Source: Natronolimnobius baerhuensis
GTDB lineage: Archaea; Halobacteriota; Halobacteria; Halobacteriales; Natrialbaceae
Assembly (NCBI RefSeq): GCF_002177135.1
Contig: NZ_MWPH01000003.1
Location: 62,001 to 126,000 of the forward strand
Reading direction: 5' to 3'
DNA: 64,000 nucleotides
Made by a program: the position numbers and the translations under genes. The notes under the pieces were generated by a model. That model was not told where the DNA came from. It was given only the letters and a program-made list of their open reading frames with translations, and did not search any database. This document shows, piece after piece, positions 3 through 31,892 of this stretch; position 1 is the stretch's first letter, and the number at the start of each line of letters is the position of its first letter.

Positions 3-860
3 TGGGTCCTCGACGAGTACGAGTCCTACCGGGCCGGGCAGGACGTCGCCTCGACGACGCTCCACAACGAGATGGAGACGCTGAAGAACTTCATCGAATA
101 CCTTGAACGAATCGAGGCCGTCGACGACGATCTTGCCGACCGGGTGAACGTTCCGCACGTTCCCCGCGGCGAACGGTCCCGCGAAACGCGGTTGTCGACC
201 GACCGCGCGCTCGCGCTGATCCGGCACTACCGCTCGACCGACGCGGTGCACGGGTGTCGACGGCACGCGCTGCTCGAAACGGCGTGGCACACCGGCGCGC
301 GACTCGGTGGCCTTCGAGCGCTGGATCTCCGCGACTTCAATCGCGAAGAGCAGACGGTCGAGTTCATCCACCGGCCAGAATCGGGAACGGTCCTGAAGAA
401 TAAGCGCGAGGGCGAACGTGTAGTCGCGCTGAACGAGCGGGTCTGTGAGACGATCGGGACGTACATCCAGACCGATCGGTACGACGTACACGACGACCAC
501 GGCCGCCAGCCACTATTCTCGTCGCTGCAGGGTCGTCCGAACCCGAACACGATTCGTGTCTGGATGTACCTCGCGACATTCCCCTGTGTCCAGGGCGAGT
601 GCCCGCACAGGTACGATCCCGATTCCTGCGAGTTCCGGAATCACTCGAAGGCCAGTCAGTGCCCCTCGTCACGTGCTCCGCACCACGTCCGGACGGGTTC
701 GATCACGTGGCACTGCGATCGAGGTGTCCCCCGCGAGGTGACCGCTGAGCGGGTGAACGCCTCCCAGGACGTGATCGATGAATACTACGACAAAGCCGAG
801 GAGCGCGACCGGATGGAAAAGCGCCGCCGACCCCACCTTAATAAACTCACCATCGAATAA
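3..860 (+). CDS. Tyrosine recombinase/integrase (5' end outside window)
   Basis: C-terminal part of a phage-integrase-family site-specific recombinase; the frame is open to the left edge, so the N-terminus is missing. Counting from the Met at base 72, the visible catalytic residues are Arg77 (GARLGG), a His204-x-x-Arg207 box (HHVR) and the nucleophile Tyr238 or Tyr239 (DEYYDKA). Cysteines 172, 177, 186 and 197 between the Arg and HxxR boxes look like a zinc-binding insert, seen in many haloarchaeal integrases. Such enzymes integrate or excise plasmids, viruses and islands. No tRNA gene is visible beside it, but two direct repeats follow it at 921-1084. Function is clear from the motifs; the element it belongs to is not. 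Confidence 0.85.
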   Translation, partial: WVLDEYESYRAGQDVASTTLHNEMETLKNFIEYLERIEAVDDDLADRVNVPHVPRGERSRETRLSTDRALALIRHYRSTDAVHGCRRHALLETAWHTGARLGGLRALDLRDFNREEQTVEFIHRPESGTVLKNKREGERVVALNERVCETIGTYIQTDRYDVHDDHGRQPLFSSLQGRPNPNTIRVWMYLATFPCVQGECPHRYDPDSCEFRNHSKASQCPSSRAPHHVRTGSITWHCDRGVPREVTAERVNASQDVIDEYYDKAEERDRMEKRRRPHLNKLTIE

Positions 861-9201: not shown

Positions 9202-11838
9202 TCAGGTCGTCCGCAAATTGTCCGTACTCGGCTCGTAGACCTCGCCCTTCTGTTTGAGTTTGTCAATCTCGTGTTCAGCTTTCGAGTGATCCATCCCAAC
9301 CTCCTCTGCACGCTCTAAGACAATATCGACCGGCGCACCGTCGTCGTACTCCTCTTCGATATCGCTGATCAACTGCTTGATATTCTTGATTCGGTCACGC
9401 TGGGACTTCGAGGTCCCCGCTTCGACGATATCCGCGTCGAACTCGCCAGTTTCGGGGTCGACACCGATATCTTGCAGACAAGAATGAACGATCTCGATCA
9501 CCCGCTCTGCGTCGTGGTGTTCGACCGTATCCGAAAGCCGAACGCGAGCGCTGGCTTCCGACAGCCGAACCAGCGCCTCGAGTTTCCGCGCTGTCACCGG
9601 CACCGCTGCGTCCTCATCTGTCCCTTTCGAACGAAGGTCGACGTAGAAATCCCGGATCGCCTCCCGGGCTTCCTCGGTCATCCGTGGATGGCAGTTCTGC
9701 TTCGAGAAGGCGATGTACTTCCGGAGGAGGTCAGCATCGATAACGGGATCGACCTGATCGGTCATTTCCTCGATTTCGGCCTGGCTCACCTCTGTATTCG
9801 GCATCTGCTCGCGCTGTGTCGTCAACTCGCCTGCGTAGTTAGTTGTGAGGATGTGATCTGCCAGATTCCGGTCTTTTTCCTCGTCAGGATCGTCCGTCAC
9901 CGTAAAGATCAGGTCGAATCGCGAGATGAGCGCCGGCTCGAGGTCGATCTGCTCGCTGATCGGCTCGTAGTGGTCGAAGCGACCGTACTTGGGGTTTGCC
10001 GCCCCGAGCAGCGAACAGCGCGATTTGAGCGTGGCGTTAATCCCTGCCTTCGAGACCGAGATTTTCTGTTGCTCGAGTGCTTCGTGCATGGCACTGCGAT
10101 CCTCCGATCGCATCTTATCCAGTTCGTCAACTGCTGCGATCCCCTGATCGGCGAGAACAAGCGCGCCGGCCTCGAGCGTCCACTGCTGTCCATCTCCAAA
10201 GTCGTCCCTCACAGCGGCGGCGGTAAGCCCTGCCGAGGATGACCCTTTCCCGGACGTATAGACGGATCGTGGTGCAATATTTTGGATATAGCCGAGCATC
10301 TGGGAATTATGTGAGATGACCCCATTCGAGATGTAGTTGTGCGTGTGCTCAATCTCGAGGTCGTACACCCAGTCGTAGTCGGGTTCGACTGTCTCAATCG
10401 ATTCAATTTGATCCGTCTCTGCAGTGCTGGCAGCAACGCCACCGTCAGCCGCTACTTTTCGCCTATCTGACTGGTCGAGTGCCTTTCTGGCTGTCTTTGT
10501 CACAGCAACGGTGTCGCCTACCGATAGTTCCTCGGCGCAAACTGCACGAAAGCTGTTCAGAGTAGGAACGAACAACGGATGCGACGGCGTCACCTCGAGT
10601 TCGTGACCACTCGAGGTTCGAATCTGATACATTTGTGCAGGCGCGTCGCGTTTCCACACTTTCGTCGCCTGCTGTGGGGCAATTGAGCCGTCGCCTTGCA
10701 GGGACGGCACCTCGAGATCGATGTCGTCCCACCAGCCGTCGTCGATGGGTTTCGGATCCTCTAGATTCGACTCGACGAGATCACGAATTGGCACAGTTCG
10801 TCCATCCGCGAGTGAGATCTTCGTGTCTCCGCGAACGCACTTACCAGTACCAGGATCACCGATAAGCAGCATATGGAGGTCGCCACGGATTCTCGAGCCG
10901 TCGGGTAACTGCTTCGTAACCCCCGAGAACAACTGGAGGATCATCGCGAGTTTCTCCTGCTCGTAGCCGTAGATCGACGGCGCGATGGAGCCGACCATCT
11001 GCTCGTAGACGTCCTCCTGATTCGAAATTTCGTAGATTTTCTGTTTGTCCTCGTTGGTGATGTCCATGTCCTCGAACTGCTCTTCGTCGATATCGACGGA
11101 CATCCCCTCCATGTAGAAATCAAAGACGGGCGATTTCTCCTGGTCGTTGCCCTGTTGCTCGAGGCGGAGAACACCGGCGGCGGAGACGTGGTCGCCGGGT
11201 GTGACCTCGCCCGTGATGTCGTCTTCGACGTGGACGTCGAGTGCCTGTGGTGTCTCGCCCCCGCGCAGGCCCTCAGGGCTTTCTTGAATGCGCAGTTTCT
11301 GGGAGTCGACGAACTCGGATTGGTCGAAGTTGACCTGGAAGGGGCCTTGGCGTTCACAGCCCTGGCACTCGTGGGGTTCCTGAAAGTTTCCGCTCGATTG
11401 GGGGACGCGAGAGAGGGTGCCACAGAGCTGGCACTCGAAAGCGGCCTCCTCGATTTTGGGCCGCACGTCGGTTGCCTTTCGGACGATGCCATGAACTTCG
11501 ACGAGCGAGTTCATGTCTCGAGCGCGGATCTCCCGGATTTCGGGCGATTCCGTCTCGGGGAGGTTTCGCACGCGGACGTGTGCCTGTCCGAGGCTGACGT
11601 CGATTGGGAGGTCGTAGAGTCGCAGCGCCTCTTCGGCGTAGCGCTGGAGTTGCTCTGGCTGGTTCAGAAAGTCATCGGCCAGATCGGGGTCGTAGCGATA
11701 GAGTTCCTGCCAATCGACGTGTAGCGACCGCTGTTCATTTGGATAGCGTTGGGCAAGCTGCTTGATCTCGTTGTCGTAGTAGTTCCGGAAGAACTGCTCG
11801 AATGCGTCGACGAGTTCGGTGTTTCCCGCTTGCGCCAT
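9202..11838 (-). CDS. mcm: Replicative DNA helicase MCM (contains intein)
   Basis: 878-residue precursor, about 700 after splicing, the normal archaeal MCM length. It forms the hexameric replicative helicase. N-terminal domain with zinc site C136, C139, C158, C161; AAA+ core with Walker A GDPGTGK (327-333), split by an intein right after the Lys; Walker B 'AAVDELDKM'; Arg finger 'SRFDLIF'; C-terminal winged helix ('SDIEEEYDDGAPVDIVLERA'). The start 'MAQAGNTELV' is chosen because a TATA box at 11865-11870 lies 29 bp upstream, implying a leaderless mRNA; the longer open frame upstream covers the promoter. Confidence 0.96.
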   Translation of the reverse strand: MAQAGNTELVDAFEQFFRNYYDNEIKQLAQRYPNEQRSLHVDWQELYRYDPDLADDFLNQPEQLQRYAEEALRLYDLPIDVSLGQAHVRVRNLPETESPEIREIRARDMNSLVEVHGIVRKATDVRPKIEEAAFECQLCGTLSRVPQSSGNFQEPHECQGCERQGPFQVNFDQSEFVDSQKLRIQESPEGLRGGETPQALDVHVEDDITGEVTPGDHVSAAGVLRLEQQGNDQEKSPVFDFYMEGMSVDIDEEQFEDMDITNEDKQKIYEISNQEDVYEQMVGSIAPSIYGYEQEKLAMILQLFSGVTKQLPDGSRIRGDLHMLLIGDPGTGKCVRGDTKISLADGRTVPIRDLVESNLEDPKPIDDGWWDDIDLEVPSLQGDGSIAPQQATKVWKRDAPAQMYQIRTSSGHELEVTPSHPLFVPTLNSFRAVCAEELSVGDTVAVTKTARKALDQSDRRKVAADGGVAASTAETDQIESIETVEPDYDWVYDLEIEHTHNYISNGVISHNSQMLGYIQNIAPRSVYTSGKGSSSAGLTAAAVRDDFGDGQQWTLEAGALVLADQGIAAVDELDKMRSEDRSAMHEALEQQKISVSKAGINATLKSRCSLLGAANPKYGRFDHYEPISEQIDLEPALISRFDLIFTVTDDPDEEKDRNLADHILTTNYAGELTTQREQMPNTEVSQAEIEEMTDQVDPVIDADLLRKYIAFSKQNCHPRMTEEAREAIRDFYVDLRSKGTDEDAAVPVTARKLEALVRLSEASARVRLSDTVEHHDAERVIEIVHSCLQDIGVDPETGEFDADIVEAGTSKSQRDRIKNIKQLISDIEEEYDDGAPVDIVLERAEEVGMDHSKAEHEIDKLKQKGEVYEPSTDNLRTT
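10306..10839 (-). mobile_element. Mini-intein in the MCM Walker A motif
   Basis: 178 residues inserted between the P-loop Lys of GDPGTGK and the next host residue, Ser (SQMLGYIQNI). Splicing residues are intact: Cys1 (CVRGDTKISLADG), a block B 'VTPSHPLF', block F 'VYDLEIEHTHNYI', and the C-terminal 'VISHN' with penultimate His and terminal Asn, followed by Ser+1. The length leaves no room for a LAGLIDADG homing endonuclease; the middle ('KALDQSDRRKVAADGGVAAS') looks like a linker left by its loss. Family knowledge: MCM P-loop inteins recur in haloarchaea. It should still splice but not move by itself. Confidence 0.92.
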
Positions 11839-11864
11839 TGCACTGTGATAGGGGCGCCATCGCG

Positions 11865-11870
11865 TATAAA
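11865..11870 (-). promoter_or_regulatory. TATA box of mcm
   Basis: TATAAA on the plus strand (TTTATA on the coding strand), 27-32 bp before the mcm ATG at 11838. It supports that start and a leaderless transcript. The rest of 11839-12231 between the divergent mcm and asparaginase genes shows no further gene. Confidence 0.55.
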
Positions 11871-12231
11871 TGGTGGCAAAGCAGGCTGAAACTGAACGCA
11901 AGCCACTACAACCGGGTGGCAGTGCTCACTAGCCGCGAGACACAAGACAAAATCGTTCACTCGGCAGTGACACCGGCCACAGCGAACACCAGTTGAAGTC
12001 CTGTTCCGATCGATGGAACGCACACGCCGCAATCTTTCCCTGTTGGTGCCTGCGTGGCCAGTTGCTACGTTCCACTGCATAGGTTATGTATCTGAGGCCA
12101 ATTTATTTTGGTATTGCCCGGTGAAACTATCCTCAGTTGTCGTTTCATATGGCCACATCAGACTGTCTCCGAACTATCCTCGCTCGAGCGGACAGTAGGT
12201 ACTCAAAGTACCTGGACCGAGAAGGATGCGT

Positions 12232-28315: not shown

Positions 28316-30079
28316 ATGAATGCCGACGGGGTTCGCGACCGAGCCAGTTCGTTGCCGCGAGAGCCCGGCGTCTACCAGTTTCAAGAGGGTGAGACGACGC
28401 TGTACGTCGGGAAAGCTGTCGACCTGCGGAGTCGAGTCGGCTCCTACGCCGACCCGCGAAGCGCGCGCATCCGCCGCATGGTCGAGCGCGCCGAAACGAT
28501 TGAAATCGCGGTCACAGACACCGAGACGCAGGCGCTCTTGCTCGAGGCGAACCTGATCAAGCGCCATCAGCCACGCTACAACGTCCGGCTCAAGGACGAC
28601 AAGTCCTACCCGATGGTGCAACTGACGAGCCACGAGGCCCCGCGGATCGAGAGTACGCGCGACCCAGCTGAGTCCGCGACCGTCTTCGGCCCGTACACGA
28701 ACAAAGGACAGGTCGAGACTGTCGTGAAGGCGCTGCGGGAAACCTACGGCGTGCGGGGCTGTTCGGACCACAAGTACTCGGGTCGCGACCGGCCCTGTCT
28801 CGACTACGAGATGGGGCTCTGTACGGCTCCCTGTACCCGCGAGATCGACCTCGAGAGCTACGCGGAGGACGTGACGGCCGTCGAGCGATTTCTCGAGGGC
28901 GAGACGGGAATTCTCGCCGATCCGTTGCGCCGCGACATGGAAGCGGCCGCTGAGAACCAGAACTTCGAGCGCGCCGCCAATCTTCGGGACCGCCTCGAGA
29001 CCGTCGAGGCGTTCCACGGCGAGGGCGGCGAGGCGGTCCAGTCGGTCGGCGACGAGCGCGCCGTCGACGTCCTCGGCGTCGCCATCGAAGGCGAGGACGC
29101 GACCGTTGCCCGCCTGCGAGCCGAGAGCGGCAAACTCGTGGATCGCGAGCAACACACGCTCGAGGCACCCCAGGAGGACGCGAGCGAGGAGTCAACGCCA
29201 GCGCATGCGAGCGGCGTGCCGGCTGTTCTCGCCGCCTTCATCGTCCAGTACTACGCCGAGCGCCAGTTGCCCGACGCTCTGCTCCTGCCCGAACGCCACG
29301 GCGACGACGAAGTGGCGGCGTGGCTCGAGGCCGAAGGCGTCTCGGTCCGCGTGCCGGGTGCCGGTCGCGAGGCCAAACTCGTCGAACTCGCGCTCAAGAA
29401 CGCCCGGCGAAACGTGGGCCGTCGCGACGAGTGCGGGATGCTCGCAGACGCCCTCAAAATCGATGCCGCCCGGCGGATCGAGGGCTTCGACGTAAGCCAC
29501 GCCCAGGGAAAATCCGCGGTCGGCAGCAACGTCACCTTCGTCGACGGCAGCGCCGAAACCGCCGACTACCGCCGGAAGAAGTTAACAGATCAGAACGACG
29601 ACTACGACAACATGCGCGCACTCCTCGAGTGGCGTGCCAGCCGGGCCGTCGAGGGGCGTGACGACCGACCCGACCCCGACCTTCTGTTGATCGACGGCGG
29701 GGCGGGCCAACTCGAGGCCGCTCGAGACGCACTCGCGGCGGTTGGGTGGGACGTGCCCGCCGTCGCGCTGGCAAAAGCCGAAGAGCGCGTGATCACGTCC
29801 CATCGGGAGTTTGCGTGGCCGTCCGACGCGCCGCATCTCCATCTGCTCCAGCGCGTGCGCGACGAGTCCCACCGCTTCGCGGTCCAGTACCACCAGACGA
29901 TTCGCGACGACGTGAAAACCGTCCTCGACGACGTTCCCGGTATCGGCCCCGAAACCCGCTCCCAACTACTGGGTCGGTTCGGCAGCGTCGAGAACGTCCG
30001 CGAGGCCACACTCGAGGATCTCCAGAGCGTGTCCGGTATCGGCGAGAAGACAGCCGAGACGATCAAGTCGCGATTGTAG
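28316..30079 (+). CDS. uvrC: Excinuclease ABC subunit C
   Basis: 587 residues; makes both incisions in bacterial-type nucleotide excision repair with UvrB. The GIY-YIG nuclease domain is N-terminal ('[28 protein letters not shown]'); a UVR motif that binds UvrB is at about 203-237; the RNase H-like second nuclease domain ('[16 protein letters not shown]', '[18 protein letters not shown]') follows; helix-hairpin-helix repeats end the protein ('[19 protein letters not shown]', '[14 protein letters not shown]'). UvrB is 2.5 kb away on the opposite strand. The last 68 bases are duplicated at 30760-30827. Confidence 0.95.
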
Positions 30080-30119
30080 GGCCTTCTCGAACGGCCATTG
30101 GCGAAACGATAGGATAGAC

Positions 30120-30133
30120 AACACATATGTGTT
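30120..30133. promoter_or_regulatory. Perfect 14-bp palindrome before a membrane-protein gene
   Basis: AACACATATGTGTT is fully self-complementary and ends 22 bp before the ATG at 30156. An outer pair, GGATA and TATCC, flanks it loosely. It is a candidate operator, or a start-site element, for the gene lodged between the uvrC 3'-end copies. Confidence 0.4.
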
Positions 30134-30155
30134 CCCGTAGTGTATCCTCGTCTAT

Positions 30156-30698
30156 ATGAAGGAGTTTGCCCGTGCGATGATCGTCCCCTTTTTCATGGTT
30201 CTCTTCCCGGCAGTCTGGTTTGTCAACCGAAACCTAACGACGGAACAACTCCCGCCAACAGTTGAACCGAGTGCCGGATTGATCCTGCTCGGACTCGCCG
30301 GGTCGGTCGTCGGTTCGGCCGCCGTCGCAGCCCCTCTCGCATTTCTTGGACAGAATCGATCCGTTCCATCGGAAGACCTACCGTACCGACAGCGTATCTT
30401 CCAGCCGGATACCGACGCCCTCGTCGTCTTTTTTGCCTTCATTGTGCTCTGTACGGTCTGGGCACTGGTTGTGTTCGTCGGCATCGGCCCAGCCGTCCTC
30501 GGTAACGTACTGACGGTCGTAATGATCCTGCCCGGCTTGCCGCTGCTTGTTCTCGCCCCGCTCGCCATCCACTGGGCCGTCGCAACGACCGTCGGTCTCG
30601 CTGCCTGTGCGCTCTGGCTCTCCGTTCTCTCAGTCGGCACCGTCGAACTCACCCGAAAACGGTCGGGAAATTCGACCACTAACTCTAGTGGCCACTGA
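30156..30698 (+). CDS. Multi-spanning membrane protein, unknown (between uvrC 3'-end copies)
   Basis: 180 residues with four or five hydrophobic helices, about 7-24, 42-64, 88-112, 117-139 and 141-163. The N-terminus is 'MKEFARAMIVPFFMVLFPAVW', the C-terminus a basic, Ser/Asn-rich tail. No family recognised. It is preceded by a 14-bp palindrome and flanked on both sides by the uvrC 3' end (intact on the left, a displaced fragment at 30760-30827 on the right), so it was probably inserted after uvrC existed here. Confidence 0.68.
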   Translation: MKEFARAMIVPFFMVLFPAVWFVNRNLTTEQLPPTVEPSAGLILLGLAGSVVGSAAVAAPLAFLGQNRSVPSEDLPYRQRIFQPDTDALVVFFAFIVLCTVWALVVFVGIGPAVLGNVLTVVMILPGLPLLVLAPLAIHWAVATTVGLAACALWLSVLSVGTVELTRKRSGNSTTNSSGH

Positions 30699-30759
30699 GC
30701 GTCACTGTACATTCAACCACACGATAGGTGCGCCTGTTTTTATCGTGTCCAACGACGCC

Positions 30760-30827
30760 CTCGAGAATCTCCAGAGCGTTTCCGGTATCGGCGAGAAGAC
30801 AGCCGAGACGATCAAGTTACGATTGTG
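30760..30827 (+). pseudogene. Displaced copy of the uvrC 3' end (HhH motif)
   Basis: 68 bases matching 30011-30078 at about 63 positions. The frame is preserved: '[22 protein letters not shown]' then TGA, against '[22 protein letters not shown]' then TAG in uvrC. It keeps the last helix-hairpin-helix but has no start or upstream homology. The offset is 749 bp, all of it occupied by the membrane-protein gene and its flanks. Confidence 0.9.
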
Positions 30828-30900
30828 AACGTAACGGGTATCGTGACACTCTCGGTTTGCCTGCAGAACTGATTTATTTCCGATCAATGCAGTGATCGGT

Positions 30901-31506
30901 ATGGCAAAAATGCGGTCTCGACGACACGTTCTCGGTCTCGCTGGAACCGTTGCGCTCGCCGGCTGTTCGAATCTGGACGACTCGAGCGACGAGTCCATCG
31001 GTGATGCGAACACTGAGGGGGCGGTGGATGACACGAACGAGTCGAACGGGACGAGCGACGATGCCGACAACAGCGGTGACGACACCGAAAGCGATGACGA
31101 TCTACACGCCGAGTACGACACGACCGAGGTGCAGGCCGTGTCGGCCGACGGCGACGACCTCGAGTCAGTGACGGCGGCGATAGCCGAAACCGACGAGGAA
31201 CTGGTCCGCGGGCTGAGCGAGACTGAGGACTTGCCCGACGACCGCGGCATGCTGTTCGTCTACGACGAGGACGACCAGCGCCAGTTCGTCATGCGAGACA
31301 TGGACTTCGGTATCGACATCATCTACGCCGATTCGGATGGGACGATCACCGGCATCCACCACGCGCCCGCGCCCAGAGAACGCGAGGAGGGCAGCCATCA
31401 GGTCTACGTCGGCCACGGCGAGTACGTCCTCGAGACCGTCTACGACTGGACCGTCGACCACGAGGTCCACGTCGGCGACACGCTCGAGTTCGATCTCGAG
31501 TCGTAA
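30901..31506 (+). CDS. DUF192 lipoprotein
   Basis: 201 residues. 'MAKMRSRRHVLGLAGTVALAGCSNL' is a twin-arginine signal with lipobox (ALAGC). A long acidic Ser/Asp/Asn linker follows (to about residue 75), then a DUF192 domain: 'ELVRGLSETEDLPDDRGMLFVYDEDDQRQFVMRDMDFGIDIIYAD', ending 'YVLETVYDWTVDHEVHVGDTLEF'. DUF192 proteins are small beta-barrels of unknown function, often exported. A second Met three bases into the open frame is used as the start because 'M-A-K-M-R-S-R-R' fits. Confidence 0.85.
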   Translation: MAKMRSRRHVLGLAGTVALAGCSNLDDSSDESIGDANTEGAVDDTNESNGTSDDADNSGDDTESDDDLHAEYDTTEVQAVSADGDDLESVTAAIAETDEELVRGLSETEDLPDDRGMLFVYDEDDQRQFVMRDMDFGIDIIYADSDGTITGIHHAPAPREREEGSHQVYVGHGEYVLETVYDWTVDHEVHVGDTLEFDLES

Positions 31507-31595: not shown

Positions 31596-31892
31596 GTGTC
31601 AAACGACGACGACCTCGACGACTTGCTCGATGAACTCGACAGCCAGGGCGACCTCGAGACCTCCCAGCAGGTCCTGTCCATCCGAACCGAGAGCCGACGC
31701 TACGACAAGCCGGTGACGATCATCGAGGGCTTTGACCTGTCAAAATCGGAGCTCAAATCAACCGCCTCCGAACTCAAAAGTTCGCTTGGTACCGGCGGCA
31801 CGGTTGGCGACAACCGAATCGAACTGCAAGGCGATCATCGCGACCGCGTGCCCGACTTGCTCCGCGAGCGCGGTTACGACGTTCGCGACTAG
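31596..31892 (+). CDS. SUI1-family translation initiation factor aIF1
   Basis: 98 residues. The eIF1/SUI1 fold is visible in 'ESRRYDKPVTIIEGFDLSKSELKSTASELKSSLGTGGTVGDNRIELQGDHRDRVPDLLRERGYDV', including the conserved 'LGTGGTV' turn and 'IELQGDH' strand. The N-terminal 25 residues are acidic and flexible. aIF1 works in start-codon selection on the small ribosomal subunit. The start is a GTG. It ends 17 bp before the end of a converging gene. Confidence 0.93.
   Translation: MSNDDDLDDLLDELDSQGDLETSQQVLSIRTESRRYDKPVTIIEGFDLSKSELKSTASELKSSLGTGGTVGDNRIELQGDHRDRVPDLLRERGYDVRD

Follow-up and report, generated by a model that had tools for sequence, protein, structure and literature searches.

The 3′ ends of genes are used by integrative elements, examples being tRNA genes and, in E. 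coli, the icd gene. In Vibrio cholerae, homology-facilitated illegitimate recombination has been proposed for the T6SS effector–immunity displacement arrays, in which the old cargo and the displaced 3′ ends stay downstream (PMC5361080), and work cited in that article, as far as the article relates it, describes Rhs loci as strings of orphaned 3′ regions arising with C-terminal displacement. Homology-facilitated illegitimate recombination has one homologous end and one illegitimate end, as described in PMC3240628; two further sources report that polyploidy is common in haloarchaea (PMC10085750) and that these organisms possess a fusion-based mating system (PMC5496957).

The locus compared here with these systems lies in a stretch of 64,000 nt from Natronolimnobius baerhuensis (GCF_002177135.1, contig NZ_MWPH01000003.1, positions 62,001 to 126,000, forward strand), the whole of which is called the window below. 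Its genome is designated G000 and that of the sister species in the same genus G001; other genomes and individual loci carry G- and L-numbers, and genera are coded g9, g14, g17, g24, g26, and g28. The order in the window is uvrC, a gene for a membrane protein (MP), a uvrC fragment, a DUF192 gene, and SUI1, and the coordinates are collected in Table 1. Elsewhere in the window, at 9202–11901 on the minus strand, lies an MCM helicase gene whose MCM P-loop region contains an intein splicing domain (PF14890).

Table 1. Features of the uvrC–SUI1 interval, in window coordinates.
Feature	Position	Strand	Evidence
uvrC, intact	28316..30079	+	Pfam UvrC_RNaseH_dom, GIY-YIG, UVR, HHH_5
First repeat copy, the 3′ tail of uvrC	30011..30077	+	Direct repeat
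Palindrome AACACATATGTGTT (14 bp), candidate operator 5′ of MP	30120..30133	.	Once in genome; same place in G014
MP, 180-aa membrane protein, putative cargo of version I	30156..30698	+	Pfam: no match
Putative SUI1 remnant of MP-locus type, comprising upstream region and start codon (GTG at 30745)	30715..30757	+	Random-stretch match test
Second repeat copy, the 3′ tail of uvrC; seam starts CTCGAG	30760..30826	+	94% to first copy; same boundaries in sister
DUF192 gene, putative cargo of version II	30892..31506	+	PF02643
SUI1 (aIF1), intact, DUF192-locus type upstream region	31596..31892	+	PF01253

The two copies of the uvrC tail form a direct repeat with a spacing of 749, identical at 63 of 67 positions (94%). 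The original prediction had described 68 bases with about five changes; the repeat is real, and its extent is corrected to 67 nt with four differences (five when the following base is included). The prediction was also right that the fragment duplicates the 3′ end of uvrC, that it stays in the uvrC frame up to a stop codon, and that MP and a 14-bp palindrome lie between the copies. A 71-nt uvrC-end query against the whole genome of the strain matched two places only (E 4e-31 and 1e-23), with no third copy, and a repeat of such length and identity is far beyond chance. The second copy ends with TGA, as opposed to TAG in the functional gene, and the altered residues in it include a D to N and an S to L change. 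In each of the two species with a second copy, the repeat begins at CTCGAG, and it ends at the stop codon.

The search for the uvrC end covered 125 genomes of the family (Natrialbaceae), G000 and G001 included, and gave a single match in most of them. A close second uvrC 3′ end near the gene was present only in G000 and G001, a restriction to this genus. In G001, the two ends are 632 bp apart, and the cargo between them is unlike that of the window, being composed of a repeat sequence and an ORF that encodes a CPxCG protein of 52 residues; a search of that genome found no relative of MP, and a phosphotransferase-family gene (PF01636) is situated between the uvrC fragment and DUF192. The repeat sequence (L063, G001:C2:342537-342723) is 187 nt long, with four matches in G000 and six in G001 whose copies are 72–96% alike to the query, the longest copy; it is possibly a short non-coding mobile repeat.

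The start and the end of the fragment are identical in the two species. Both fragments share GTT and TGA; both functional uvrC genes have GTG and TAG/TAA. Since these shared features are accompanied by the same start base, the duplicated end most likely arose in one event before the split of G000 and G001, as judged from the sequences. An exception is one site that reads ACA in both G000 copies; it does not fit a single origin of the G000 and G001 fragments and would need gene conversion or chance. The functional uvrC of G000 is 88.5% identical to that of G001, continuous and genus-like to its end, with no crossover point that could be located.

Relatives of MP were found in 22 of the 125 genomes, the window's own included; the gene adjoins uvrC in g14 and g26 and takes other positions in other genera. 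In six genomes of g14 and g26 (G014, G125, G026, G090, G091, and G092), MP lies directly 3′ of uvrC, which has one close end. Because MP is absent from G001 with its two ends and present in these single-end genomes, it is neither required for nor tied to the second end, and the two are separable. The palindrome AACACATATGTGTT occurs once in G000 and is kept at the same place between uvrC and MP in G014, which belongs to another genus, so that it appears to belong with the MP upstream region, as a candidate operator or promoter element; its interpretation as the end of an element was rejected, since it is also found upstream of MP in g14. MP is 86% identical to its G014 counterpart, the value for uvrC being 82–86% by block, and the MP tree groups G000 with g14 with modest support; this identity and this tree are weak hints that MP may have entered G000 from outside. 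In G014, an inverted repeat (CTGCTGAGCAGAACC...GGTTCTGCTCAGCAG, L004 1437–1481) is located immediately 3′ of MP and is perhaps a terminator or the remnant of an insertion element.

These distributions bear on the reading originally proposed, in which a small unit inserted at the 3′ end of uvrC and MP travelled with the duplicated end. The six g14 and g26 genomes do not agree with such joint travel, and G001 presents the very case named beforehand as contrary to the proposal, a relative without MP and yet with two 3′ ends. The accompanying expectation of one uvrC end in genomes without MP held in other genera, in which uvrC is followed by DUF192–SUI1 (L079–L081, at the level of gene order), and failed in the sister species. 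A more general form of the idea is site-specific integration, in which an integrase-bearing element took the 3′ end of uvrC as its attachment site, restored the gene, left the displaced end behind, and has since decayed. The duplicated gene end, the identity stopping at the stop codon, and the fact that the ends enclose different content in G000 and G001 all agree with it. Against it, a PF00589 scan, which covers the tyrosine type only, revealed no recombinase between or near the ends in G000 and G001 and no match on the sister's contig; a self-comparison of 27 downstream regions, including those of the window and the sister, showed no element flanked by uvrC ends in the 25 other genomes; and the viral, phage, and plasmid collections yielded no haloarchaeal carrier of such an element. 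The left flank of the fragment, which resembles a SUI1 start, is a further point against it, as an att-site model does not predict one. Integration is, for these reasons, a very improbable origin, and the locus is not evidence for an element integrating at a protein gene. Among the matches not accepted as carriers, those to phages corresponded to DnaE genes of Microbacterium phages, and those to viral contigs covered only 31–52 residues at 40–48% identity. The nearest integrase-like match in G000 is an ORF at window positions 72–860, approximately 29 kb from the interval (PF00589, 26.2 bits vs. a cutoff of 27.1); it may be a recombinase that has diverged or decayed.

In the family, SUI1 (aIF1) usually follows uvrC, and it was situated within 140 nt 3′ of uvrC in 13 of the loci read. 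The cargo in the gap differs by genus and consists of nothing, MP (g14, g26, and genome G079), DUF192 (g9, g24, and g28), or other DNA. At the window locus, the bases abutting the fragment read ...GCGCCTGTTTTTATCGTGTCCAACGACGCC followed directly by CTCGAG, and CGTGTCCAACGACG at 30744–30757 equals the SUI1 start in G014, G125, and G017. The stretch GTGTCCAACGACG occurs twice in the 3.9 Mb genome, i.e., at one place besides the flank. When random stretches of the window were compared with SUI1 starts, 0 of 3000 matched as well as the flank for G017 (L016), 3 of 3000 for G125 (L065), and 6 of 3000 for G014 (L064), best values that are to be read in light of the approximately 30 SUI1 references compared. 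The best matches of the flank were L016, L065, L064, and L068, a resemblance to SUI1 starts of the MP type or of g17, and only 0.3% of random stretches aligned better than the segment from the MP stop to the joint did with the MP–SUI1 gap of G125. The flank with CGTGTCCAACGACG resembles the beginning of a SUI1 gene of the kind found at MP-bearing loci, and it is the decisive feature of the locus. The upstream region of the intact SUI1 differs from it, its best matches outside the sister species being the DUF192-bearing loci L080 and L079. In G001, the same random-stretch test against the SUI1 references recognised no SUI1-like flank, and the left flanks of the two species show weak similarity (1–4% of random stretches over 20–40 nt are as good); if a SUI1 flank was once present in the sister, it would have decayed.

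The old SUI1 start raises the possibility that the fragment has been kept as a gene, encoding a chimeric mini-protein of 27 residues, in which VSNDA precedes the 22 C-terminal residues of UvrC with the helix-hairpin-helix, and in the window the GTG at 30745 is indeed in frame with the UvrC tail. The corresponding start codon is CTC in the sister, and the window copy bears the two altered residues (D to N, S to L), making this the least probable of the explanations considered.

We consider it likely that two versions of the variable uvrC–SUI1 interval have recombined and that the second uvrC end marks the seam. The two are version I, uvrC–MP–SUI1, as in g14 and g26, and version II, uvrC–DUF192–SUI1, as in g9, g24, and g28. 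In an ancestor of the two known species of the genus, the 5′ end of the version I SUI1 would have been joined to the 3′ tail of the version II uvrC at CTCGA, giving the product uvrC–MP–SUI1′::′uvrC–DUF192–SUI1, and MP would later have been lost or exchanged in the sister, which would also have acquired other sequence. The starting point of the fragment is explained by CTCGA, a motif contained in the SUI1 start as well as in the uvrC tail, and the two do meet at this motif, as a microhomology joint would have it; the repeat goes no further than the stop codon because non-coding DNA past that point is not conserved. The likely route would combine homologous recombination within uvrC (or SUI1) at one side with a microhomology join at the other, in the way proposed for the Vibrio T6SS and Rhs orphan arrays, or alternatively would be an unequal exchange between two chromosome copies or versions in a polyploid cell, either of which would fit the data; the order of events, the recipient version, and the enzymes used are what we infer. 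Among the points against this origin, the fragment most resembles the uvrC of the genus itself, which would place the version II parent within the genus or close to it. As to donor and recipient, most forks in the uvrC, SUI1, and MP trees are weak, and the SUI1 upstream types match different loci. The presence of MP in G000 and not in G001 counts against the recombination, as loss or exchange is required. A comparison of the sequence after the fragment with the uvrC–DUF192 gap of g9, g24, and g28 gave no significant match, and the idea that the DNA 3′ of the fragment equals that gap was dropped.

The same SUI1′::′uvrC joint, with no need of a second parent, could be produced by a plain tandem duplication in one chromosome, in which the segment that extends from the tail of uvrC to the start of SUI1 became doubled at CTCGA while the interval held both MP and DUF192, each copy then losing one gene. 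This course of events is unlikely, although less so than integration, as the two SUI1 upstream regions differ in type, each matching loci with that cargo, and MP and DUF192 together without a second end were found in none of the genomes and loci read. With recombination between two versions as the preferred origin, the locus is a genuine but ordinary recombination scar whose seam is unusually readable. It illustrates that a small duplicated gene end can pass for an integration site and that the flanking sequence separates the readings; it also documents a haloarchaeal interval between housekeeping genes whose cargo differs between genera, in which one locus shows two recognisable versions. A broader notion, which we raise tentatively and hold to be rather doubtful, is that the uvrC–SUI1 interval could be a spot of recombination-driven cargo exchange, anchored by two housekeeping genes and occasionally stacking old and new cargo through microhomology joins, which would make it the archaeal equivalent of the displacement arrays of the Vibrio T6SS.

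Compared with integrative elements at gene 3′ ends, the window locus is alike in that other DNA lies between the copies of a duplicated end and that identity does not extend past the end of the gene, and it differs in being without a recombinase and without a site-carrying element, and in having a SUI1-like flank. With Rhs loci, as far as they are described in the citing article, it shares the displaced gene 3′ ends that remain downstream of a complete gene; the difference is that the uvrC tail is constant in kind at the window locus and only the DNA after the tail varies. In contrast to the Vibrio T6SS arrays, the anchors in the window are archaeal housekeeping genes (uvrC and SUI1), the cargo forms no known effector–immunity pair, and a single event is seen; in both, new cargo lies beside a conserved anchor gene, with the old 3′ end and the old cargo downstream.
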